Positions 2,465-36,113 of a stretch of DNA of 64,000 nucleotides are shown here, piece by piece. The stretch lies in the NCBI GenBank assembly GCA_017305535.1, contig JAFKKN010000010.1, positions 62,001 to 126,000 of the forward strand, given 5' to 3'. The stretch's first letter is position 1. Each line of letters opens with the position of its first letter. A model generated the notes under the pieces. The model was not told the origin of the DNA, did no database searches, and worked only from the letters and a program-made list of their open reading frames with translations. Source of the DNA: Hyphomicrobiales bacterium. Its GTDB lineage: Bacteria; Pseudomonadota; Alphaproteobacteria; Rhizobiales; Xanthobacteraceae. Made by a program: the position numbers and the translations under genes.

Positions 2465-3526
2465 ATGGACGGGCAAACCACGATCTGGCGCGTCGAAACG
2501 AAAACCAGCGCCTCGACCGCGTTCGCGATCCTCGCCGTGCTGGCGATCATCACCGGCCTCGCGGCGCCGATCTATCTTCCGCGCGCCATGCTGCAGGATC
2601 TGTTCTTCATTCTGACGATGCTGGCGCTCGCGCAAAGCTGGAATCTTCTGGCCGGATATGCGGGGCTGGTGTCGGTCGGCCAACAGGCCTTCGTCGGTCT
2701 CGGCGCGTATGTCATGTTCGCCGGCGTCGTTTTTCTGAAGCTCGATCCGCTGATTGCGATCCTGCTCGGCGGCATCGCGGCCGCGCTGCTCGCCATTCCT
2801 GCCGGCATCTTCGCCTTCCGGCTTCAAGGCGCTTACTTCGCGATCGGCACCTGGGTGATCGCCGAAATCGTGCGGCTGCTCGTGGCGCAATGGAAGATGC
2901 TGGGCGGCGGCACGGGCACGTCGCTACCCGCATCGGCCACGCGCCATATGCAGGGCGTCGATCTGGTGCATCGCCTGTTTGGTTTCCGCCCCGCGCAGGC
3001 GGTCGATGTGATCTGCTACTGGCTCGCGCTTCTGCTCGCGGTCGCCACCATTTTCATGGTCTACCGGCTGCTTCGGTCGCGTCACGGTCTCGCGCTCGCC
3101 TCGGTGCGTGACAATCAGGAGGCCGCGCGCGCGGTCGGCGTCGATGCGCGCCGCCTGAAAGCGCTGGTCTATCTGGCAAGCGCATTCGTGACCGGTCTCG
3201 TCGGCGCGCTGATCTATGTGCAGAAAGCGCGCATCTCGCCGGACGCGGCTTTCTCCGTCACCGACTGGACCGCCTACGTCATCTTCATCGTGGTGATCGG
3301 CGGTATCGGCACGATCGAAGGGCCGATCGTGGGCGTGCTGGTGTTCTTCGCCTTGCAGAAACTATTGGCCGACTTCGGCTCGATCTACCTGATGGTGCTC
3401 GGCCTGATCGGCATTGTCATCATGCTGTTCGCGCCGCAGGGGTTATGGGGCCTGTTCGCAAGCCGCACCGGCATTCAACTTCTACCCGTCCGACGTTTTC
3501 TGCGCGGCGGTCCCATCAAGAACTGA
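2465..3526 (+). CDS. LIV-type ABC transporter permease (LivM-like)
   Basis: A 353-residue permease taken from the ATG at 2465, just after the LivH-like stop; an in-frame start at 2372 would overlap LivH by 85 bases and was not used. Multiple membrane segments are visible. LAQSWNLLAGYAGLVSVGQQ and AFVGLGAY are classic LivM motifs, followed by a conserved region around VRDNQEAARAVGVDARRLK and the C-terminal VIGGIGTIEGPIVG. It completes the importer. A strong ribosome-binding site (GAGAGGAGGG) after its stop serves the monooxygenase gene, which starts 19 bases on, so transporter and catabolic genes are probably one transcript. Confidence 0.92.
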   Translation: MDGQTTIWRVETKTSASTAFAILAVLAIITGLAAPIYLPRAMLQDLFFILTMLALAQSWNLLAGYAGLVSVGQQAFVGLGAYVMFAGVVFLKLDPLIAILLGGIAAALLAIPAGIFAFRLQGAYFAIGTWVIAEIVRLLVAQWKMLGGGTGTSLPASATRHMQGVDLVHRLFGFRPAQAVDVICYWLALLLAVATIFMVYRLLRSRHGLALASVRDNQEAARAVGVDARRLKALVYLASAFVTGLVGALIYVQKARISPDAAFSVTDWTAYVIFIVVIGGIGTIEGPIVGVLVFFALQKLLADFGSIYLMVLGLIGIVIMLFAPQGLWGLFASRTGIQLLPVRRFLRGGPIKN

Positions 3527-3545
3527 CATCTGAGAGGAGGGCCCG

Positions 3546-5300
3546 ATGGCCGACATCACGACCGACGTTCTCGTTATCGGCACAGGCCCCGCGGGGTCCG
3601 CCGCCGCCGCGTTGTTGTCCACCTACGGCGTTGAGACCATGGTGGTCAATCGTTACCGATGGCTGGCTAATACGCCGCGAGCCCATATCACCAATCAGCG
3701 CACGATGGAGGTGTTGCGCGACCTTGGTCGCGACGTCGAGGACGAAGCGTACATGTTCGCTTCGCATCAGGACCTCATGGGCGAGAACGTGTTCTGTACG
3801 TCGCTCGTCGGAGAGGAAATCGGCCGCCTGAAGACGTGGGGGACTCATCCGTTGTCGCGCGCCGAGCATCTGCTGTCATCGCCAACTAAGATGAACGATT
3901 TGCCGCAGACCTTCATGGAGCCGCTGCTGTTCAAGACCGCATGTTCGCGCGGGGCTCAGGCGCGCATGTCGACGGAATACGAAAGCCACGTTCAGGATGA
4001 AGAGGGCGTCACCACGACGTTGCTCGATCGGCTGACCGGCAAGAAGCTCACGGTACGCTCGAAGTATCTGCTCGGCGCCGACGGCGGAAACTCCCTTGTC
4101 GCGCAGCATGCCGATCTGCCCTTTGAGGGCAAAATGGGAGTCGGTGGCTCGATGAACATCCTGTTCCGGGCCGACCTGTCGCGCCACGTCGCACATCGTC
4201 CGTCGGTGCTCTACTGGGTCGTGCAGCCGGGGGCGGACGTCGGCGGAATCGGCATGGGTCTCGTCCGCATGGTTCGCCCGTGGAACGAATGGCTCATCGT
4301 GTGGGGCTACGACATCGAGCAGCCGCCTCCCAAGGTCGACGAGGCTTTTGCCACCAAGGTCGCGCGCGATCTGGTCGGCGACCCGGAGCTCAAGATCGAT
4401 CTGATGTCGGTCTCGACCTGGACGGTCAACAACATGTACGCGACCAAGACGTCGAACGGCCGGGTCTTTTGCATGGGTGACGCGATTCACCGTCACCCGC
4501 CGTCCAACGGATTGGGATCGAACACGTCGATCCAGGACGCTTTCAATCTTGCCTGGAAGATCGCCTACGTCATTAAGGGACATGCCGGATCGAAGCTGTT
4601 GGACAGCTATACGCGCGAACGTGCGCCGATCGCCAAGCAGATCGTCACGCGCGCCAACAAATCGATCGACGAATTCGGCCCGATCTTCCAGGCGCTCGGC
4701 CTGCTGGATTCCATCGATCCGGTGAAGATGCAGCAGAACATGGATGCGCGCTGCGAAAGGACCGAGGATGCTGAACGGCAGCGGGCGAAGATTCGCGAGA
4801 CGATTGCCAATAAGGTCTACGAGTTCGACGCGCATGGCGTCGAAATGAACCATCGCTACAAGTCCGACGCGGTAGTCACCGACGGGCAGAAAGAGCCCGC
4901 CTTCGCGAAGGACCCCGAGCTGCACTTCCAGCAGACGACATGGCCGGGCGCACGTCTGCCGCACGCATGGCTGTTCGCCAAGGACGGTGAGAAAATCTCG
5001 ACGCTCGATCTCGCGGGACACGGCAGGTTTACGGTGTTGACCGGAATTGGCGGCGAGGCCTGGGTTGCCGCGGCGAAGAAGGTCGGCAAGGAACTGGGCA
5101 TCGAGATCGATGCCCATGTCATCGGACCGCGCCAGACCTGGCAGGATTTTACGGGGGACTGGGCGCGTGCGCGGGACGTCAGGGATAGCGGCGTCGTGCT
5201 GACGCGTCCGGATCAGCACGTCTGCTGGCGCCGCGAGACGGTGGCTGATGACCCCGCGGCCGAACTCCGCCGGGTGTTCAAGCAGATCTTGGCGAACTGA
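3546..5300 (+). CDS. FAD-dependent aromatic monooxygenase, TfdB / phenol hydroxylase family
   Basis: A 584-residue class A flavoprotein hydroxylase expected to use NAD(P)H and O2 to ortho-hydroxylate a phenol. The N-terminal FAD motif is VIGTGPAGSAAAALLS (residues 10-25). Next come TPRAHITNQRTMEVLRDLG, the GADGGNS motif near residue 180 and the second FAD motif GRVFCMGDAIHRHPPSNG near residue 308, followed by GSNTSIQDAFNLAWKIA. From memory of the family, the order and wording closely follow 2,4-dichlorophenol 6-monooxygenase (TfdB, about 598 residues). It sits 20 bases before a hydroxyquinol-type dioxygenase, so its product is probably a di- or trihydroxybenzene; a resorcinol- or hydroxybenzene-type substrate is plausible. 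The natural substrate cannot be read from sequence. Confidence 0.85.
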   Translation: MADITTDVLVIGTGPAGSAAAALLSTYGVETMVVNRYRWLANTPRAHITNQRTMEVLRDLGRDVEDEAYMFASHQDLMGENVFCTSLVGEEIGRLKTWGTHPLSRAEHLLSSPTKMNDLPQTFMEPLLFKTACSRGAQARMSTEYESHVQDEEGVTTTLLDRLTGKKLTVRSKYLLGADGGNSLVAQHADLPFEGKMGVGGSMNILFRADLSRHVAHRPSVLYWVVQPGADVGGIGMGLVRMVRPWNEWLIVWGYDIEQPPPKVDEAFATKVARDLVGDPELKIDLMSVSTWTVNNMYATKTSNGRVFCMGDAIHRHPPSNGLGSNTSIQDAFNLAWKIAYVIKGHAGSKLLDSYTRERAPIAKQIVTRANKSIDEFGPIFQALGLLDSIDPVKMQQNMDARCERTEDAERQRAKIRETIANKVYEFDAHGVEMNHRYKSDAVVTDGQKEPAFAKDPELHFQQTTWPGARLPHAWLFAKDGEKISTLDLAGHGRFTVLTGIGGEAWVAAAKKVGKELGIEIDAHVIGPRQTWQDFTGDWARARDVRDSGVVLTRPDQHVCWRRETVADDPAAELRRVFKQILAN

Positions 5301-23723: not shown

Positions 23724-26700
23724 ATGAACATGGAACTCTCGCGGCGCTCGTTTATGCTCGGGGCCGGCGCGGGTTTGGCGGGAACGAGTCTTGGGGCGCT
23801 TGGATTTGGTGAAATCGAAGCCGCTCACGCACTATCGATCCGGCCTTTCAAGCTCGCGCAGACCAAGGAAGTTCGCAGCCAGTGTCCTTATTGTGCGGTC
23901 TGCTGCGGCATGATGATTTTCGCGGCCGAAAGCAAGGTCGAGAAGGGCAAGATGGAAGTCACCCATATCGAGGGTGACGTGGACCATCCGGTCAATCGCG
24001 GAACGTTGTGCCCGAAGGGCGCCGGCGCGATCGACTACATCAAGTCGAAGTCGCGCGTTAAGTATCCGATGTATCGCAAGCCCGGCACGAACAGCTTCGA
24101 GCGTGTGAGCTGGGATTTCGCGATGGAGCGCATCGCGAAGCTGATGAAGGAAGATCGCGACGCCAACTGGGTCGAGAAGAACCGCGATGGCGTGACCGTC
24201 AACCGTTGGTTGACCACCGCGTTCCTCGCCGGCTCCTCGGTCGCCAACGAAGGCGGATGGGCGACGTTCAAGGTCTCGCGTGGCCTTGGGCTGTTACAGA
24301 TCGAAAACCAAGCCAGGATTTGACACGGACCGACGGTGGCCAGTTTGGGCCCCACATTTGGTCGCGGTGCAATGACGAACAGCTGGACTGACATCAAGAA
24401 CGCCGATGTCATCTGGATCATGGGTGGTAACGCAGCGGAAGCGCATCCCTGCGGATTCAAATGGGTCACCGAGGCGAAAGCCGAGCGTGGCGCCAAGCTG
24501 ATGGTGGTCGACCCGCGGTTCAACCGCTCGGCTTCGGTCGCGGATCACTATGCGCCGATCCGCTCCGGATCGGACATCGCGTTCCTGTCGGGTGTGATCA
24601 ACTACCTGCTCACCAACGACAAGATTCACAAGGAGTACGTGCGCAACTTCACCAACGCCGCGTTCATCGTGCGCGATGACTTCGAGTTTAACGAGGGTCT
24701 GTTCTCGGGATACGACGAGTCGAAGCGCTCCTATGATCGCAGCACCTGGGAATACAAGTTCGGTGACGACGGCTTCGCCATTCGCGATATGACGTTGCAG
24801 GATCCGCGCTGTGTCTTCCAGTTGATGAAGAAGCACTTCGCGCAATACACGCCGGAACTGGTCGAGCGCGTCTCGGGCACCCCGAAGGACAAGTTCCTGA
24901 AGGTTGCCGACTGGGTCGCGTCCACCGCCAACGGCGAGCGCGCGATGACAATCATGTACGCGCTCGGATGGACACAGCACTCCCATGGTGCGCAGAACAT
25001 CCGTTGCGCGGCGATGATCCAGCTTCTGTGCGGCAATATCGGTATTCCCGGCGGCGGCGTGAACGCATTGCGCGGTCACTCCAACGTGCAGGGCATCACC
25101 GACGTCGGCACCCTGACGGCGGCGATCCCGGGCTATCTGGCCCTGCCGACCGAACAGGAACCGACGCTGGAGTCGCACCTCGGCAAGCGTACCTTCAAGC
25201 CGCTGACGCCAAACCAGACCAGCTATTGGCAGAACTATCACAAGTTCTACGTCAGCTTCCTGAAGACGCAGTTCGGCGCCAATGCCACCAAGGAGAACGA
25301 GTTCGGCTACAACTACCTGCCGAAGCTTGATGGCATCTATGACTGCATCAAGATGTTCGACCTGATGCATCAGGGCAAGACCACCGGTCTCCTCTGTCAG
25401 GGCTTCAACCCCCTGATGGCGATTCCGAACACGAACAAGAGCCGGGAAGCGCTGTCGAAGCTGAAGTTCCTGGTCAGCATGGACCCGATCGAGACCGATA
25501 CGGCTCGGTTCTGGGAGAACCATGGCGAGTTCAACAACATCGATCCCGCCAAGGTTCAGACTGAAGTCTTCATGCTGCCGGTCACCTCGTTCGCCGAGGA
25601 AGAAGGCAGTGTGACCAACTCCAGCCGCCTCATCCAGTGGAAGTGGAAGGCTGCCGATCCCTACTTCGAGTCGAAGACCGACACGGAGATTCTCGCCGAC
25701 CTGTTCGTGCGTATGCGCAAGATGTACGAAAAGGACGGCGGCAAGGGTAAGGAAGCGCTGCTTGCGGTGGACTGGAGCTACAAGGACCCGCTGCATCCGA
25801 CTGTCGACGAGCTTCAGATCGAGCTCAACGGCAAGGCCTTGACCGACCTCAAGGACGCGGAAGGCAAGGTGGTTCGCGCCGCCGGCCAGCGGCTCGCCAC
25901 CTTCGGCGAAATGCGTGACGACGGTTCGACCGACGGCTGCATGTGGATCTACACAGGCTTCTACGGTCCGACCGGCAACATGGCGCAGCGGCGCGATAAT
26001 GCCGACCCGTCAGGGCTCGGTGTCTATCCGAGCTGGGGCTTCTCCTGGCCGGCCAACCGCCGCATCCAGTACAATCGCGCCTCGGCCGATCCTGACGGCA
26101 AGCCGTGGAGCGAGCGCAAGAAGTACATGTACTGGGATGGTCAGCGCTGGAGCGGTCCGGACGTTCCGGACTACGTGCCGACCATTCCGCCGGATCGGGC
26201 GGTGGGCCCCTTCATCATGAACGCGGAAGGCGTGTCGCGCCTCTGGGTTCGTGGCCTGATGGCCGACGGTCCGTTCCCGGTGCACATGGAGCCGTTCGAA
26301 TCTCCGGTCGGCAACCTGGTGTTCCCGAAACTCAAGGGCAACCCGGTAGCGCGGGTGTTCAAGTACGATATGGAGGCGCTTGGCACGTCCAAGGACTTCC
26401 CGATCGTTGGCACCACCTACCGCCTCACCGAGCATTTCCACTACTGGACCAAGACTGTTCACGCCAACGCGGTGATGCAGCCCGAGTTCTTCGTGGAGAT
26501 GTCGGAGGAGCTCGCCAAGGAGAAGGGCATCAAGCACGGGCAGCGCGTCCGGATCTGGTCCAAGCGCGGCGAGGTCAAGGGCAAGGCCGTCGTCACCAAG
26601 CGCCTGAAGCCGTTCAAGATCGACGGCAAGACGGTGCACGAGGTGGGCCTGCCGCTCAACTTCGGCTTCATCGGCGAAACCAAGAAAGCGTCACCGATCA

Positions 26701-28603: not shown

Positions 28604-29521
28604 ATGATGTCGCGCGTAGATACCACCCAGCCTGATCCTTCCGTTATTGGCAATATTCCGATCCCGCCGTTCGCGCGGTTGCCCGATCCGGTGCAAATCT
28701 TCACCGATCGCAGCGCACGGTTCGCCGCTTTGGCCGAAGGGCATGATCTGGCGCCCTACCTGAATTTCCTTTCCGGTCTTTGCGGTGTGCAGGCGTCCAT
28801 TCAGGACGGCTTGCCGGACCCCGCGCCGATCGATGCCGAAACGCTGGCGCGCGCCAGGGAACACAGGATGCCGCCGCTCGACCGCGTCGCCTTCAAGGCC
28901 GACAGCGCGTTCGAGGCTGCGTTCCAGCGGCTGCTCGATGCTGCCGTCGGGTTGGAGATGCCGTCGCCGGCCCGCGCGGCGCTGCTGCGCGTGACCGCCG
29001 CCGATGCCGCCGGGCGCGAGGCGATGTTGCAGAATGTGCTGGCGGAAGCCATTCCGTTCGAAGCGGTGGCCGAACACATCTTTGTCGCGGCCGCGTTGCA
29101 GGTGCATTTCGCGCGGCTCGCGGCGCGGCTCGACGACAAGTCGCTGCAATCGGTCGGCGACGGCGTCTGCCCGTGTTGCGGCAGCGCGCCGACCTCGACC
29201 GCTATCGTCAACTGGCGTCGGGCACCGGGCACGCGGTTCTGCGCCTGCTCGCTGTGCGGCACGATGTGGAACTACGTTCGCTCCAAGTGCACGCTGTGCG
29301 GATCGACCCGGAAAATCCTGTTCCAGGAAATCGAGGGCGTTGGCAATATCAAGGCGGAAACCTGCGACGACTGCCACGGTTACATGAAGATCTTCAACCA
29401 GCAGAAGGACGATCGGCTCGATCCGGTGGCCGATGACGTCGCCTCGCTCGGCCTCGATCTCCTTGTGCGCGAACTCGGTTTCCGACGCGGCGGCATCAAT
29501 CCGTTCCTGATCGGCTATTAG
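28604..29521 (+). CDS. fdhE: Formate dehydrogenase accessory protein FdhE
   Basis: A 305-residue cytoplasmic protein needed for activation or Tat proofreading of respiratory formate dehydrogenases. The C-terminal half carries the rubredoxin-like metal-binding Cys pairs: GVCPCCGSAP, FCACSLCGTMWNY, KCTLCGSTRK and ETCDDCHGYMK. The N-terminal helical domain has no motif. It starts at ATG 28604 (ATGATG) after the repeat element and ends ten bases before selA, whose Shine-Dalgarno (GGAGG) overlaps its stop region. Length matches family members near 305-310. Confidence 0.95.
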   Translation: MMSRVDTTQPDPSVIGNIPIPPFARLPDPVQIFTDRSARFAALAEGHDLAPYLNFLSGLCGVQASIQDGLPDPAPIDAETLARAREHRMPPLDRVAFKADSAFEAAFQRLLDAAVGLEMPSPARAALLRVTAADAAGREAMLQNVLAEAIPFEAVAEHIFVAAALQVHFARLAARLDDKSLQSVGDGVCPCCGSAPTSTAIVNWRRAPGTRFCACSLCGTMWNYVRSKCTLCGSTRKILFQEIEGVGNIKAETCDDCHGYMKIFNQQKDDRLDPVADDVASLGLDLLVRELGFRRGGINPFLIGY

Positions 29522-29530
29522 GAGGTTGCG

Positions 29531-30946
29531 GTGCGCGATCCCGGGCCCGCATTCAGGCGTATTCCGTCCATCGACGAGCTGCTGAAGACGCCGCTCGCCG
29601 CTGAAGCCATTGACCGTTTCGGCCGTCCCGCCTTGCTGGACGCGCTCCGGCATCGCGTCGAGGACGTGCGCGGCGCAGCGGCTGAGGGGCAGATGGCGGT
29701 GCCGAGCGCGGAGACGATCGTTGCATCAGCGGTCGCATCGCTGGAACGCGCTTCGCAGCCGAAGGTGCGGCCGGTCTTCAATCTCACTGGCACGGTGCTG
29801 CATACCAACCTCGGCCGCGCGCAGATCGCGGAAGCGGCTATTGAAGCGGCGACGGCAGCGATGCGCGACGCACTCGCGCTGGAATTCGACCTCGCCACCG
29901 GCAAGCGCGGCGAGCGCGACGATCTCGTCCGCGACCTCCTGTGCGAACTGACCGGTGCCGAGGATGCCACCGTCGTCAACAACAATGCCGGTGCGGTGCT
30001 GCTCGCCCTGAACACGCTCGGGCGTGGCAAGGAAGCGGTGATCTCGCGCGGCGAGTTGATCGAGATCGGCGGTGCGTTCCGGATGCCCGACATCATGGCG
30101 CGCGCCGGCACCAAACTGGTCGAGGTCGGCACCACCAACCGCACCCATGAGAAGGACTATGCGGCCGCGCTCGGCGCCAAGACAGGTCTCGTGCTCAAGG
30201 TGCATACGTCTAACTATCGTGTCGAAGGTTTCACCAAGAGCGTGTCCGGCAAGGCGCTGGCCGACATCACGCGCGCGCACAACGTGCCGCTGCTGAACGA
30301 TCTCGGCTCCGGTACGCTGGTCGATCTCACGCGCTACGGGCTGTCGCATGAGCAGACCGTGCGCGAGGCAGTGGCCGAGGGCGCCGATCTGGTGACGTTC
30401 TCGGGCGACAAGCTGCTCGGCGGGCCGCAGGCCGGCTTCATCGTCGGCCGCCGCGACCTGATCGCGCGCCTCAACAAGAATCCGATGAAGCGCGCGCTGC
30501 GCATCGACAAGGTGCGGCTCGCCGCCATCGAGGCGACGCTGCAACTCTACCGCGATCCCGATCGTCTGGCGGAGCGCCTGCCGACCATCCGCCTCCTAGC
30601 GCGCAAGCGCGATGAGATCGCCGCGCAGGCGGCGCGGCTGCTGTCCGCAGTCTCCGCTGCGATCGGTGCGCGCTATGTCGCGCGCGTCATCGATTGCGCC
30701 AGCCAAATCGGCTCCGGCGCGTTGCCGCAGGAGACCTTGCCGAGCGCCGGCATCGCCATTCGCGCAGCAGGCGCACGTGCGAGCGGCCGCGCGTTGATCG
30801 CGTTGGCGGCGGCGTTCCGTGGTCTCGACAAGCCGGTGATCGGCCGCATCGAGGAGCAGGCCTTCGTGCTCGATCTGCGCTGCCTCGAAGACGACGCCGG
30901 CTTCGTTCGCAATCTTGCGAGCCTCCAATTGGCGGAGCGCGCATGA
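29531..30946 (+). CDS. selA: L-seryl-tRNA(Sec) selenium transferase
   Basis: A 471-residue PLP enzyme that converts Ser-tRNA(Sec) to Sec-tRNA(Sec) with selenophosphate. It starts at GTG 29531 behind AGGAGG. The N-terminal RIPSIDELL and LTGTVLHTNLGRA are family marks. The PLP lysine is Lys294 in TFSGDKLLGGPQAG, very close to Lys295 of E. coli. LNDLGSGTLVDLTRYG precedes it. It lies between fdhE and the Sel1-repeat gene, and its stop overlaps the next start (ATGA). With selB, selC and selD in the same region all core Sec machinery is present. Confidence 0.97.
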   Translation: MRDPGPAFRRIPSIDELLKTPLAAEAIDRFGRPALLDALRHRVEDVRGAAAEGQMAVPSAETIVASAVASLERASQPKVRPVFNLTGTVLHTNLGRAQIAEAAIEAATAAMRDALALEFDLATGKRGERDDLVRDLLCELTGAEDATVVNNNAGAVLLALNTLGRGKEAVISRGELIEIGGAFRMPDIMARAGTKLVEVGTTNRTHEKDYAAALGAKTGLVLKVHTSNYRVEGFTKSVSGKALADITRAHNVPLLNDLGSGTLVDLTRYGLSHEQTVREAVAEGADLVTFSGDKLLGGPQAGFIVGRRDLIARLNKNPMKRALRIDKVRLAAIEATLQLYRDPDRLAERLPTIRLLARKRDEIAAQAARLLSAVSAAIGARYVARVIDCASQIGSGALPQETLPSAGIAIRAAGARASGRALIALAAAFRGLDKPVIGRIEEQAFVLDLRCLEDDAGFVRNLASLQLAERA

Positions 30947-31746
30947 TGGGCTGGCTCGATGCGTCACTCAAAGCCTTCCGCAGCAAACCGGCCGAGAAAA
31001 CCACGGCCCAACTGATGTCGGATGCGCTCGATGCCGCCGCTGGTAACGACTACGAGTCGGCTCTGGCGATCTGGGGCCCACTGGCGCAGCAGGGCGTGGC
31101 AAGGGCGCAGAACAACGTCGGCGTCTGCTTCAGCGAAGGCATGGGCGTCGCGCGCGACACTGCGCTGGCGTTCAAGTGGTTGACGCTCGCCGCCGAGAGC
31201 AGCGATATCATCGGCCAGCGCAATCTCGCGGATCTGTATTTCAAGGGCGAGGGCGTCGAATCCAACGCGGTGAAAGCCGCCGAACTCTATCGCGCGGCGG
31301 CGAAAGCGGGCGACGGCCCGGCGCAGGACATGCTGTCGTGGATGCTTTACGAGCAGCAGATGATCCCCGGCGATCTCGCCGAGGCCAAGAGCTGGGCGGA
31401 GGCTGCGGCCGCGCAAGGCGTGGTGCCGTCCATGACCCGGCTCGGCATGATCTATCACAACGCCATCGGCGTTGAGCGCGACGCGGCGGAAGCCGCACGC
31501 TGGTGGGACATGGCGGCGGCGCGCGGCGATGCCGACGCACAGGCGATGCTGGGCGCGGCCTATCAACTCGGCGCCGGCGTGCCACGCGACGCGGTGGCGG
31601 CGCTGATGTGGCTGTTGCGCGCGCAGGCCGGCGGTAGCGCATTGGCGGAATCGTTCCTGCAGCCGACTTACGCCGCGATGTCGGAAGCCGAAATCGAGCG
31701 CGCGCGCAAGCTGGCGAAATTGCCGCTCGGGGAGCCCGCGTCATGA
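30943..31746 (+). CDS. Sel1-repeat (TPR-like) protein inside the sel operon
   Basis: A 267-residue helical-repeat protein; ATG 30943 overlaps the selA stop, and its stop overlaps the selB start at 31743 (both ATGA). About six Sel1-type repeats of 36 residues run from residue 30 to 245, for example AQNNVGVCFSEGMGVARDTA, GQRNLADLYFKGEGVE and AQAMLGAAYQLGAGVPRDAV. There is no signal peptide, so it is cytoplasmic. Its position between the two key Sec genes, with translational coupling on both sides, suggests a scaffold or regulatory role in selenoprotein synthesis or formate dehydrogenase assembly. This is inference; no function is established here. Confidence 0.88.
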   Translation: MMGWLDASLKAFRSKPAEKTTAQLMSDALDAAAGNDYESALAIWGPLAQQGVARAQNNVGVCFSEGMGVARDTALAFKWLTLAAESSDIIGQRNLADLYFKGEGVESNAVKAAELYRAAAKAGDGPAQDMLSWMLYEQQMIPGDLAEAKSWAEAAAAQGVVPSMTRLGMIYHNAIGVERDAAEAARWWDMAAARGDADAQAMLGAAYQLGAGVPRDAVAALMWLLRAQAGGSALAESFLQPTYAAMSEAEIERARKLAKLPLGEPAS

Positions 31747-33854
31747 TCGTCGGCACCGCGGGCCACATCGATCACGGCAAGACCTCGCTGGTGCGGGCGC
31801 TCACCGGCGTCGATACCGATCGCCTCAAGGAAGAGAAAGCGCGCGGCATCTCGGTCGATCTCGGCTTCGCCTATCTGCCGACGCCGGACGGCGGCGTGCT
31901 CGGCTTCGTCGACGTACCGGGCCACGAGCGTTTCGTCCACAATATGCTGGCTGGTGCAAGCGGCATCGATTTCGTGTTGCTGGTGATCGCCGCCGACGAC
32001 GGCATCATGCCGCAGACGCTCGAGCATCTGGCGATCGTCAATCTGCTCGGCATCACGCGCGGCGCGGTCGCCATCACCAAGGCCGATCTCGTCAGCGAGG
32101 ATCGCCTCGCCGAGGTGCGCACCGAGATCGCCAACGCACTGGCGCTGACGCCGCTGAGCGACGTCGAAATGTTCGCGGTGTCGAGCCAGAGCGGGCAGGG
32201 CATCGACGATCTGCGCGCGCGGCTGTTCGCGGCGGCGCGCGAATGGCAGGCGCGCTCCGACAAAGGGCGTTTCCGGCTCGCGGTCGATCGCTCCTTCACG
32301 CTGTCCGGCACTGGCACCGTTGTCACCGGCACGGTGCTGTCCGGCAGCGTCAGCGTCGGCGATCAGGTGATCGTCAGTCCGTCGGGGCTGCAGGCGCGTG
32401 TGCGCGGCATTCACGCGCAGAACACCGTGGCCGAGACAGGTCGTGCCGGCGACCGCTGTGCGCTCAATCTTGCCGGCGACAGCGTCACCAAGGATGCGAT
32501 CTTGCGCGGCAATGTCGTGCTCGATCCCGAACTGCATGCGCCGGCGAATCGCATCGACGCCCGCGTCGAGGTGCTGGCGGGCGAGAGCAAACCGATCACG
32601 CAATGGATGCCGGTGCGGCTGCACCACGCCGCTGCCGAGGTCGGCGCGCGGATCGTGCTGCTCAGCGACGATCCGATTCCGCCCGGCGGCTACGCCTTCG
32701 TGCAACTGGTGCTGGACCAGCCAATTGCGGCGGCGGTCGGCGACCGCTTCGTGCTGCGCGACACTACGGCGCAACGGACCATTGGTGGCGGAATGTTCCT
32801 CGATCTGCGCGCCGCCGCGCGCAAGCGCCGCGCGCCGGAGCGCATCGCGCAGCTCGAGGCCAACGCCATCAGCGATCCGGAAGGTGCGCTTACGGCGCTG
32901 TTGAATTGCGCTGCCGGCTATACCGATTTCTCCGCCTTCATTCGCGACCGCGCGATCTCGGAAACCGAGCGCGAGGCGCTGGTGCAACGCATGAGCCTGC
33001 TGCGGCTCGTCACCGCGAAAACCGAGTTCGTTATCGCGCCAGCGGTCTGGCTGCGGATGAAGAACGACATCCTGACGACCCTGGCAAAATTCCACGCCGA
33101 GAATCCGAACCTCTCCGGCATCGGCCTCGAGCGCCTGCGGCTACAACTCGAACCGCGTTTGCCGACGCCGGCCTTCGCGGCGCTGCTGCAAGGGCTGGCG
33201 CGCACGCGGGACATCGCGCTCGACGGCGCGTGGATCCGCCTGCCGAGCCACGAGGTGCGGTTGACGCCGGGCGACGAAGCGTTGTGGAACAAGGTGCGGA
33301 TTTTTATCGGCGGCGAGGGGCGTTTCCGCCCACCGCGCGTGCGCGACATCGCGGGTTACACTGGCGTCGCCGAGCCCGAAGTGCGACGGCTGTTCAAGCT
33401 GGTCGGGCGCATGGGGCGCGTCGACGAGGTTGCGCACGATCACTTCTTCCTGCGCGCGACGGTTGCGGAAATGGTCGGCGTGATGGCGACCTTGTCGGAA
33501 CAGGCGGCCGATCATCAATTCACCGCCGCGCAATTCCGCGACAAATTCGACAACGGTCGCAAAGTCGCGATTCAGATACTTGAATTTTTCGACCGGCATG
33601 GTGTTACAATTCGCAGAGGCGATCTGCGCCGTGTCAACAAGCATCGGCTTGACCTGTTTCGCAGGCCGGCCGATGAAACGGGGCCGAATAACTCGGAGAC
33701 AAGTACGGCGCCGAAGATTGAATCGATTGGAAGAGCATCGTTCCCGGTGGGGCGTCCGGACTTCAAATCCGGGAAGGGCCGCGAGTCGGTTCTTGGTGGG
33801 TTCGACTCCCATTCTCTTCCGCCAACCCTCAACAAGCACGGGAGCGCGCGATGA
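31743..33854 (+). CDS. selB: Selenocysteine-specific elongation factor SelB; frame runs through selC
   Basis: The open frame gives 703 residues. The GTPase domain shows GHIDHGKTSLVRALTG (residues 7-22), the switch region RGISVDLGFAYLP, DVPGHERFVHNML and the base-recognition variant TKADLV. EF-Tu-like domains follow, then winged-helix repeats (HFFLRATVAEMVGVMATLSE, then HGVTIRRGDLRRVNKHRLDLF) that bind SECIS RNA. The recognisable protein ends near residue 650. The last 41 codons coincide with the tRNA-Sec gene (from codon 663) and a short linker before the TGA at 33852. No stop lies between. The stop overlaps the start of the following gene. Usual SelB length is about 610-680, so the tail may be an unusual extension. 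Confidence 0.93.
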   Translation: MIVGTAGHIDHGKTSLVRALTGVDTDRLKEEKARGISVDLGFAYLPTPDGGVLGFVDVPGHERFVHNMLAGASGIDFVLLVIAADDGIMPQTLEHLAIVNLLGITRGAVAITKADLVSEDRLAEVRTEIANALALTPLSDVEMFAVSSQSGQGIDDLRARLFAAAREWQARSDKGRFRLAVDRSFTLSGTGTVVTGTVLSGSVSVGDQVIVSPSGLQARVRGIHAQNTVAETGRAGDRCALNLAGDSVTKDAILRGNVVLDPELHAPANRIDARVEVLAGESKPITQWMPVRLHHAAAEVGARIVLLSDDPIPPGGYAFVQLVLDQPIAAAVGDRFVLRDTTAQRTIGGGMFLDLRAAARKRRAPERIAQLEANAISDPEGALTALLNCAAGYTDFSAFIRDRAISETEREALVQRMSLLRLVTAKTEFVIAPAVWLRMKNDILTTLAKFHAENPNLSGIGLERLRLQLEPRLPTPAFAALLQGLARTRDIALDGAWIRLPSHEVRLTPGDEALWNKVRIFIGGEGRFRPPRVRDIAGYTGVAEPEVRRLFKLVGRMGRVDEVAHDHFFLRATVAEMVGVMATLSEQAADHQFTAAQFRDKFDNGRKVAIQILEFFDRHGVTIRRGDLRRVNKHRLDLFRRPADETGPNNSETSTAPKIESIGRASFPVGRPDFKSGKGRESVLGGFDSHSLPPTLNKHGSAR
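33729..33824 (+). tRNA. selC: tRNA-Sec (anticodon UCA), nested within the selB frame
   Basis: A 96-base tRNA with encoded CCA. The acceptor arm begins GGAAGAG and ends CTCTTCC with G discriminator. The anticodon stem CCGGA/TCCGG holds the loop CTTCAAA, giving anticodon TCA. A long variable arm (GGGCCG...CGGTTC, with wobbles) and T arm TGGGTTCGACTCCCA follow. The eighth acceptor pair (C-T) is mismatched. The wording and long extra arm match bacterial selC. It begins exactly on a selB codon boundary and is fully covered by the selB frame in the sense direction. Confidence 0.96.
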
Positions 33855-34330
33855 CGGCTCAGCCCTTGACGGCGTTGCTCGACGATCTCGATCGGATCGC
33901 GCACGACGCCTCCATCAACGAAGAGAATTATCGCAAGGAAGCGGCAGTTCGCTTTCGCGAGTTGGAGCAGGATCGCGCCTTCGGTTTCCGGCGGCTCAAC
34001 CTGATGCGCACCGTGACCGCCGCGCTTGATGGTTGCGAGACAGAGGAAGATGCGATCCTGCGCGGCTCCACGGCCTTCCTGCATGAACTCGGGTGGAGTG
34101 GCACCAGCGAGACGCAGCAGGAGACACTGACGAATTTTTCGCCGGTAATCGCCGCGTGCTGGCGAGCGACGCAGCCGGTTTCACCCGAGGCGCAGACGCC
34201 AGCGGATTCGACGGCCATCATCGAGAAGCTGCGCGCGTTCGAGGCGTGGTTCGCCGAGCATCGCAACGGCCCGTTCCTCAGCATCATGGAGCGGGAAATC
34301 GTGGAGCTGCCGCTTGTCGAAACCTGCTAG
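33851..34330 (+). CDS. Hypothetical protein downstream of selC
   Basis: A 159-residue, acidic, mostly helical protein without signal peptide or membrane segment; no family is recognised. The N-terminal half is rich in charged residues (LDDLDRIAHDASINEENYRK, then RELEQDRAFGFRRLNLMRTV), suggesting an amphipathic or coiled region. The ATG at 33851 overlaps the selB stop (ATGA), so it should be translated by ribosomes that have crossed selC. Its own 3' end overlaps the next gene by 17 bases. Position makes a link with selenocysteine or formate dehydrogenase function plausible. Confidence 0.75.
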   Translation: MTAQPLTALLDDLDRIAHDASINEENYRKEAAVRFRELEQDRAFGFRRLNLMRTVTAALDGCETEEDAILRGSTAFLHELGWSGTSETQQETLTNFSPVIAACWRATQPVSPEAQTPADSTAIIEKLRAFEAWFAEHRNGPFLSIMEREIVELPLVETC

Positions 34331-34718
34331 GCGCAAGAAGCTCGACGACTTCCTGTTTGACGATTGGGTGGTGCGCGAATTCCAGCGTACCGGTGGTTTC
34401 ACCGCGCTGATCATTCTGGTGTCGACCGCCAATCTCGGCGTGCTGCCGCTGCGCTCGACCTTCACGCATGTGGTCGGCGACGAACTCGACTGGCATCACT
34501 TCACACTGTTGATGCGCGGCGCCAACGTGCCGTGGGATGGCGTGCTCTTGATGCCGATCGTTGATGACGACGGCGGCCCGGTGGAGGACGCCAGGGCCGC
34601 TGATGCGCTGCGCGAGTTGGAAGACCGCGTCAACGCCGACCGCATGGTGGTCAACGAAGGCCACTTCTTCGACACCTGGGGCCGCCGCATGAAGGTCGAG
34701 CCAGCGCAGGCGAACTGA
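34314..34718 (+). CDS. Hypothetical protein, second gene after selC
   Basis: A 134-residue soluble protein with no family recognised. It starts at TTG 34314 inside the 3' end of the preceding gene (17-base overlap), reading MSKPARRKKLDDFLFDDWVV. A hydrophobic strand-rich centre (GGFTALIILVSTANLGVLPL) is followed by a polar part ending NEGHFFDTWGRRMKVE. The overlap suggests coupled translation with the 159-residue neighbour. The TTG start is chosen because no closer ATG or GTG precedes the conserved-looking part. No function proposed beyond association with the sel operon. Confidence 0.7.
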   Translation: MSKPARRKKLDDFLFDDWVVREFQRTGGFTALIILVSTANLGVLPLRSTFTHVVGDELDWHHFTLLMRGANVPWDGVLLMPIVDDDGGPVEDARAADALRELEDRVNADRMVVNEGHFFDTWGRRMKVEPAQAN

Positions 34719-34852: not shown

Positions 34853-35902
34853 CTAGCTCTCGATCCGCACTTGCGCGGAACCGGTTTCGGCGTGGCCGAT
34901 GATCTTTGCCGACGTGAAGCCGGAATCAGCCACTTTCTTCAAAACCGCTTCGGCGTGATCCGGCGCGCAAGCGACTAGAAGTCCACCCGAAGTTTGAGGA
35001 TCGGCCAGCAGATCGCGTTGCCATTCCGGCATGCCGGGCGGCAGTACGATGGAGGCGCCGTAGCTTGCCCAGTTCCGTTTCGACGCGCCGGTGATGAAGC
35101 CGCCCTTGGCCAATTCGTTGGCGCGGGAGAATAGCGGTACTGCCTTGGCGTCGATCACCAGCGACAGTTTCGATTCTCGCGCCATCTCGAACGCGTGGCC
35201 GAGCAGGCCGAAACCGGTGACGTCGGTGATGGCATGAACGGCCCGGTCGGCCGACAGGTCGCCGCCGACGCGATTGAGCTGTGTGGTCGAGGCGACCATC
35301 TCGGCATAGCCGTCGCCGTCGAGCTGGCCTTTCTTGATGGCGGCGGAATAAACCCCGACGCCGAGGCCCTTGGTCAGGATCAGCGCATCGCCCGGCTTGG
35401 CGTCGGCGTTGCGGCGCACCTGTTCGGGCCGGCAGATGCCGATCACCGCGAGGCCGTAGATCGGCTCCGGCGCATCGATGGAATGGCCGCCGCCGATCGG
35501 GAAGCCGGCATCGGCGCAGACCGACGCGCCGCCGCGCAAAATCTCGCGCACCACCTCGACGGAAATCTTGTCGAGCGGCATGCCGAGGATCGCCAGCGCC
35601 AGGATCGGCTTGGCGCCCATGGCGTAGATGTCGGAGATGGCGTTGGTGGCGGCGATGCGGCCGAAGTCGAACGGATCGTCGACCACCGGCATGAAGAAAT
35701 CGGTGGTGGCGACGATGCAGGTGTTGTCGTCGACCTGCCAGACCGCGGCGTCATCGCCGGTGTCGGCGCCGACCAGCAATTGCCGGAACGGTGCGGCGGC
35801 GGGCTGACCGGCCAGCAGTTCCTGCAACACCGATGGCGCAAGCTTGCATCCGCAGCCGCCGCCATGGGCGAGGCTCGTGAGGCGGACGATGGGGGCGTTC
35901 AT
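34853..35902 (-). CDS. selD: Selenide, water dikinase (selenophosphate synthetase)
   Basis: A 349-residue ATP-dependent enzyme making selenophosphate, the selenium donor for SelA. It starts at ATG 35902 behind GGGAG; an in-frame TTG at 35908 is not needed. Catalytic Cys17 and Lys20 in [11 protein letters not shown] are at the same numbers as in E. coli SelD; position 17 is Cys, not Sec. The Asp-rich metal sites are in [13 protein letters not shown] and [16 protein letters not shown], and the glycine-rich [16 protein letters not shown] is present. It is convergent with the sel operon rather than part of it. Confidence 0.97.
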
Positions 35903-36113
35903 TGTCAAATCTCCCGATCGCGCCGCGCCGCGGCAGGCTCATCGGCATTCCGCGCGCCGCGCGGAGCAGAGAGACAATTCAGATCAGCAAACATAGGCCG
36001 GAACGCGCCGCCGATGCAAACGGACCATGCGTCGCATCGTGAGGTGCGTTCGGTGGAATAATTTCAGAACTTAATCGGAATTTGTTTTGCCGGTAGATTT
36101 GCAACACGAAAAC

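Follow-up and report, generated by a model that had tools for sequence, protein, structure and literature searches.

A selenocysteine tRNA gene nested in the selB frame of a Hyphomicrobiales bacterium, with a reading frame through selC that appears to be under selection

The 64,000-nucleotide (nt) stretch of Hyphomicrobiales DNA analysed here, called the window (GenBank assembly GCA_017305535.1, contig JAFKKN010000010.1, positions 62,001 to 126,000), holds a compact formate dehydrogenase–selenocysteine gene cluster in which selC, the gene for selenocysteine tRNA (tRNA-Sec), lies wholly within the open frame of selB. The selB gene (31743..33854, + strand) runs from an ATG through 703 codons to a TGA and encodes the selenocysteine-specific elongation factor SelB. 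Its product matches TIGR00475 over residues 1-630 with 419.5 bits, passing the curated cut-off of 242.25, and carries the Pfam domains GTP_EFTU, SelB-wing_2 and SelB-wing_3. The folded part ends near residue 639 and is followed by a linker of 22 selB codons (33663..33728, +), from residue 640 to the first base of the tRNA. selC itself (33729..33824, +; anticodon tca) is 96 nt long including the encoded CCA, and was found both by ARAGORN and by Rfam model RF01852, the latter with 75.5 bits where the gathering score is 47. Among the matches listed, none in this genome scores higher as a tRNA-Sec, and the next has 52.7 bits. Matches of 50-55 bits, which occur widely in the relatives, again among the matches listed, are probably other long-arm tRNAs. 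By eye, the eighth acceptor pair of the tRNA-Sec in the window (33729-33824) seems to be a C-U mismatch.

A preliminary description of the window had placed the first tRNA base at the start of selB codon 663, and the distance between the two gene starts bears this out (33729-31743 = 1986 = 662x3): selC corresponds to selB codons 663-694, in frame 0. After the CCA come nine further selB codons and the stop (33825..33854, +). This next selB stop is, as had also been said, the TGA at 33852..33854, 27 nt past selC, and it overlaps the ATG (33851..33853) of ORF2, an open reading frame (ORF) of 159 amino acids (33851..34330, +; overlap ATGA) without a match in Pfam or NCBIfam. A Shine-Dalgarno (SD)-like GGGAG (33840..33844, +) lies 3' of the tRNA and ahead of ORF2. 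The proposed 41-residue tail encoded by tRNA sequence is correct as a count of the codons between the start of the tRNA and the stop, but no more than 32 of these derive from the tRNA and nine lie beyond it. Taken by itself, the window is unremarkable for chance, with 22 linker codons and a tRNA that is stop-free in all three forward frames. It is the comparison of sequences across loci that appears to lift the nesting above chance.

For that comparison, loci were collected with the SelB C-terminal domain alone as the query (window 32823..33657), so that they were not chosen by their tails. Whole-genome searches gave matches in 26/397 genomes of the order, 114/391 of the family, 49/385 of the class and 49/398 of the phylum, in overlapping sets. 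All places listed were taken, giving 238 loci; 236 contained a SelB match, and 233 were kept after removal of copies (L347, a duplicate, and L270 and L300, identical stretches). A further set of 80 named loci (best 80 of 374) favours long tails and was excluded from the frame counts. The tRNA 5' ends were shifted by up to 3 nt from those of ARAGORN where the usual GG start was missing. The 233 loci fall into four groups: in 103 the stop comes after selC (nested), in 10 it is inside the tRNA, in 68 it precedes selC, and in the other 52 ARAGORN found no selC in the stretch fetched. Among the nested loci are L306, a remnant copy, and L237, which is open at a contig end. By SelB C-domain identity, nesting was seen in 17/17 loci at 70% or above (the window and L306 included), 31/32 at 60-70% and 54/85 at 50-60%. 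The stop-free overlap, whose conservation in relatives had been named as support for a function and whose absence from most of them as a sign of chance, is thus kept among near kin, to which nesting belongs; there the test favours function.

The length of selC is 96 nt in all 103 nested loci, and in 102 of them it lies in frame 0. Where the stop comes before selC (n=68), the three frames are represented 23/22/23. Among near relatives (SelB C-domain identity of at least 46%), frame 0 was found in 101/102 nested loci, and the stop-before-selC controls were spread 6/7/6. The ten loci with a stop inside the tRNA are distributed 4/3/3; when these are pooled with the nested loci, 106/113 stop-free linkers enter the tRNA in frame 0. 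Nested linkers take 26 different lengths from 21 to 144 nt, all of them multiples of 3 except the 56 nt of L220 (G108:C1). In this sole off-frame nested locus the last SelB stretch is altered and the tRNA is read in another frame. The SelB end of L220 seems to be frame-shifted, with the frame running 134 nt beyond selC, as a real change or a sequencing error.

In 88/103 nested loci none of the three frames of the tRNA contains a stop, and frames 1 and 2 are open in 92/103 and 99/103, respectively. When shifts of 1 or 2 nt were simulated, 79% and 77% of linker sites were still scored as nested (101 loci), so the frame-0 count is not forced by the definition of nesting. On the same two grounds, openness of the tRNA was rejected as the cause of the frame lock. 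A quick tree was built from 130 rows (102 nested) and 277 columns, with support from the Shimodaira–Hasegawa-like approximate likelihood ratio test (SH-aLRT) only and 35 of 127 inner branches open; the row of L306 was just 19% filled, and the nested L133 (below 46% identity) was left out. The tree requires a minimum of 53 linker-length changes (102 of 103 nested loci), with one nested row off frame, and a minimum of 12 switches between nested and not nested. For 52/53 length changes to be multiples of 3, P is about 2e-20 after correction for survivorship, an approximation in which each length change is independent and all but one is a multiple of 3. From these comparisons, reading through selC appears to be under selection.

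The position of the stop points in the same direction. A frame-0 stop no more than 36 nt past selC was found in 89/101 nested frame-0 loci, compared with 10/100 and 8/100 for frames 1 and 2; in the non-nested loci the counts for frames 0, 1 and 2 were 16/61, 15/67 and 22/65. Part of the contrast arises because frames 1 and 2, which code for ORF2, are stop-poor. Linker differences in 27 kin pairs fell 106/98/131 by codon position, as against 511/385/1619 in the SelB core, and equal rates across the linker codon positions were not rejected (P 0.07). These pairs were required to have equal linker length and a linker identity of at least 50%, by which the pairs that had changed most were dropped. 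The linker residues thus look nearly unconstrained, and it would therefore be the frame that is kept, not the linker peptide. Translation that passes through selC and stops directly after it seems to be upheld for its own sake.

The remainder of the cluster lies mostly upstream. The selB ATG is overlapped by the TGA of a Sel1-repeat protein ORF (30694..31746, +; ATGA), which is listed from a TTG and may really start later. Ahead of it are selA, for selenocysteine synthase (29531..30946, +; PF03841, 539.5 bits), fdhE, for a formate dehydrogenase accessory protein with FdhE domains (28604..29521, +), and, further upstream, a SECIS_3 element, a signal for selenocysteine insertion (24318..24376, +; RF01989, 71.4 bits, gathering score 63). 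On the opposite strand, a selD-like gene (34853..35908, -) is named from its AIR synthase-related domains, AIRS and AIRS_C, and from its context. Several of the closest named loci (best 80 of 374) are titled Hyphomicrobiales, Xanthobacteraceae or Bradyrhizobiaceae.

Three relatives have an unusual selC or selB. In L352 (7604-9902; G003:C107, same genus), a second selC identical to that of the window in 93/96 bases is nested in a 102-codon fragment of a SelB C-terminus. It is directly followed by a complete but divergent SelB ORF (616 amino acids as listed, 36.5% identity over residues 2-354), and tblastn found no other parts of a window-type SelB in the 18-kb locus. The locus looks like the fossil of a nested unit captured by a second type of selB. 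In L353 (8449-10384; G001:C107, same genus), a different tRNA-Sec, sharing 53/96 bases by position, lies just upstream of a divergent SelB, and matches to selA and selD occur in the vicinity; the search with the SelB C-terminal domain found no window-type SelB in this relative. For L351, on a plasmid of Phyllobacterium zundukense (NZ_CP104969.1), the gene table has no entry for selB between selA and the following ORF. It lacks two locus tags and is known to be incomplete. In the sequence, selC (4460-4555) lies in frame inside a selB match at 2501-4582, and annotation may have omitted the nested selB or treated it as a pseudogene.

The nested arrangement and the feedback idea have been known since 2021. 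In Rhizobiales and other Alphaproteobacteria, Mukai (2021, Int J Mol Sci 22:4605; PMC8124441) found selC to be nested within selB, the stop of which overlaps the start that follows, and also noted remnants and partial overlaps. According to the hypothesis put forward there, maturation of the tRNA leaves the selB mRNA without a stop, making SelB and tRNA-Sec alternatives. The idea is restated in passages of two later reviews (PMC9312934 and PMC13188914), and no experimental test of it was found in the literature searched (open-licence PMC papers). The interpretation given in the preliminary description, a feedback between tRNA-Sec output and SelB translation, was reasonable and is partly supported here, yet it was already in print. 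The present analysis adds a count of the frame lock set beside non-nested controls, as well as tests of the near stop and of the linker; the text of Mukai (2021) is without such counts. The frame lock contributes evidence of selection to an oddity that had been described.

Under this model selB and selC would share one operon transcript, each copy of which would become either a complete selB message or a precursor of tRNA-Sec. Cleavage by RNase P at 33728/33729 would leave a selB message without a stop; the reasoning that a cut at the tRNA 5' end takes away the only selB stop is sound. In the ten loci with the stop inside the tRNA, the stop is 3' of the RNase P site and would be lost likewise. 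Two steps are added here to the published model: a ribosome crossing selC would block folding of the tRNA, and transfer-messenger RNA (tmRNA) would rescue ribosomes on nonstop selB, with destruction of the product. Messages without a stop are established substrates of tmRNA, for which the genome contains a gene. The outputs of SelB and tRNA-Sec would in this way be tied together and an excess of SelB avoided. The predicted fold of the window in its context disfavours the cloverleaf, the acceptor-stem probability being 0.06 with 60 nt of upstream sequence and 0.38 with 120. Nested loci are not worse in this respect than 46 non-nested loci with a 96-nt tRNA (means 0.80 and 0.74; 0.82 and 0.65), and for that reason the fold of the window was set aside as evidence.

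That the selB frame is held open, in one particular frame, across the linker and the whole tRNA, with a stop just behind, is supported by the comparison of loci. That selC is a true nested gene within translated selB, working by an either/or model that is in essence Mukai's, is given an even chance. The fuller proposal is that of a built-in transcript switch under selection, in which each transcript would yield one tRNA-Sec or one full-length SelB message but not the two together, what is left of the nonstop message would be cleared by tmRNA, and the ratio would be set by a race between ribosome and RNase P; this is put forward tentatively, at somewhat short of even chances. If the either/or model is true, a tRNA and its carrier factor would be balanced without a regulator, by the race between RNase P and the ribosome. 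Lineages in which selB stops ahead of selC or within it would offer natural comparisons.

Simple run-on, in which selB lost its stop and drifted through selC without consequence, would arise easily given a short linker and the openness of most of these tRNAs in every frame, and the several lineages that are not nested (at least 12 changes) would fit it. It is nevertheless disfavoured, and highly improbable, in view of the survivorship-corrected frame lock and of near stops in frame 0 far above those of the other frames. Another possibility is that selC is transcribed from a promoter of its own within selB and that the overlap is relevant to packing only. A consensus scan detected neither promoter-like nor terminator-like sites in 33300..34400, where shuffles give only 0.3 and 1.1, respectively, so that the zeros say little. 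No promoter signal was seen before selC in 53 representatives, whose best sigma-70 match scored 7.00 of 12, compared with 6.99 in shuffles and 6.89 inside selB; the best match upstream of selC in the window scores 8 of 12. Alphaproteobacterial promoters can match the consensus weakly, but a promoter would leave the frame lock unexplained, and this account is considered improbable. The tRNA and ORF2 are separated by 26 nt, hardly enough for a terminator, and the genes stand close together. The simplest reading, and a likely one, is that selB, selC and ORF2 are co-transcribed.

Selection might instead act on the start of ORF2, keeping selB ribosomes moving as far as the ATGA, with selC merely in between. 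In 60/102 nested loci selB has an ATGA-type overlap with an ORF of 60 codons or more that starts with ATG, GTG or TTG, the ORF2 family follows selC in 60/62 coupled and 14/40 uncoupled nested loci (74/102 in total), and selB itself starts at an ATGA with the Sel1-repeat gene. However, the nested loci that lack an ORF2-family member within 200 nt (L306 and L246 left out; two coupled to another ORF) are in frame 0 in 26/26 cases, and a stop lies no more than 36 nt past selC in 25/26, compared with 1/25 and 3/26 in the other frames. Coupling to ORF2 as the only cause was rejected, since these loci keep both the frame lock and the near stop. In addition, an SD-like 4-mer of its own precedes the coupled ORF2 in 44/60 loci, against 22.8 expected from shuffles, and the explanation is regarded as unlikely. 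It is also conceivable that the tRNA-encoded C-terminal residues have a role in SelB, such as that of a basic tail that binds RNA and is carried on a flexible acidic linker. The single fixed frame and the mean net charges (linker -1.9, tail +2.8; 101 loci) would suit such a role, but tRNA frames 1 and 2 would be equally basic (+3.4 and +3.5). The tail residues are conserved in an alignment of 27 SelBs, a pattern that the tRNA by itself would produce, and no tail fold is predicted, with a predicted local distance difference test score (pLDDT) below 50 for residues 642-703. Among nearest-neighbour codon differences in frame 0, the share that is synonymous is higher in nested tRNAs (40/134; frames 1 and 2, 25/126 and 36/131) than in non-nested tRNAs overall (61/275) but the same as in the nearer non-nested set with at least 40% SelB identity (35/120; 18 distinct tRNAs, low power). 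These results are mixed and weak and give no clear sign that the tRNA-coded peptide is kept. Lineages with a stop inside or before the tRNA persist, and a functional tail is judged rather doubtful.

Several points weigh against the either/or model. A nonstop switch would need no more than an open frame, and because frames 1 and 2 are mostly open too, strict frame 0 needs something more, be it the near stop, the coupling or the peptide; frames 1 and 2 may carry the cost of a long tail or of losing the near stop. Nesting is dispensable, with at least 12 nested/not-nested changes on the tree, and the stop-free overlap, seen in 0/6 loci at 46-50% identity, is rare among distant SelBs (1/93 loci below 46%). 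A selC promoter of a type outside the coverage of the scans is possible. Finally, a processed ORF2 message would be expected to retain its SD-like site and need not fall together with SelB.

The proposed transcript switch can be set beside several known systems. The arfA gene of Escherichia coli yields a cleaved nonstop mRNA and is repressed via tmRNA. It resembles the model in that RNA cleavage ahead of the stop gives a nonstop message cleared by tmRNA; it differs in being another gene, with RNase III cleavage of a hairpin in place of a tRNA, and shows no sign of kinship. In the mitochondria of Armadillidium, tRNA-Lys lies inside cox1 (per Mukai 2021, PMC8124441). As in the window, a whole tRNA stands in a coding frame in the same direction, but the genome is a compact mitochondrial one and the genes are others. 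In Dyella and Luteibacter, selB and selC overlap partially, with the selB stop inside selC (Mukai 2021, PMC8124441), and the present analysis found this partial overlap in two named Dyella loci, L102 and L107, and a stop inside the tRNA in 10 of the 233 sampled loci. The selB stop is 3' of the tRNA 5' end there as in the window, but it lies inside the tRNA, whereas that of the window comes after it. Closest are the nested loci of Mukai (2021, PMC8124441). The processed ORF1/2 message is leaderless according to that work, whereas that of the window would retain a 26-nt leader with GGGAG. The window shares with those loci a whole tRNA-Sec of 96 nt, a multiple of 3, in the selB frame, on the same strand and in frame 0, a selB stop that overlaps the next start (ATGA, 33851..33854) and an alphaproteobacterial formate dehydrogenase-selA cluster (fdhE, selA, SECIS_3), and in the arrangement itself the two do not differ.

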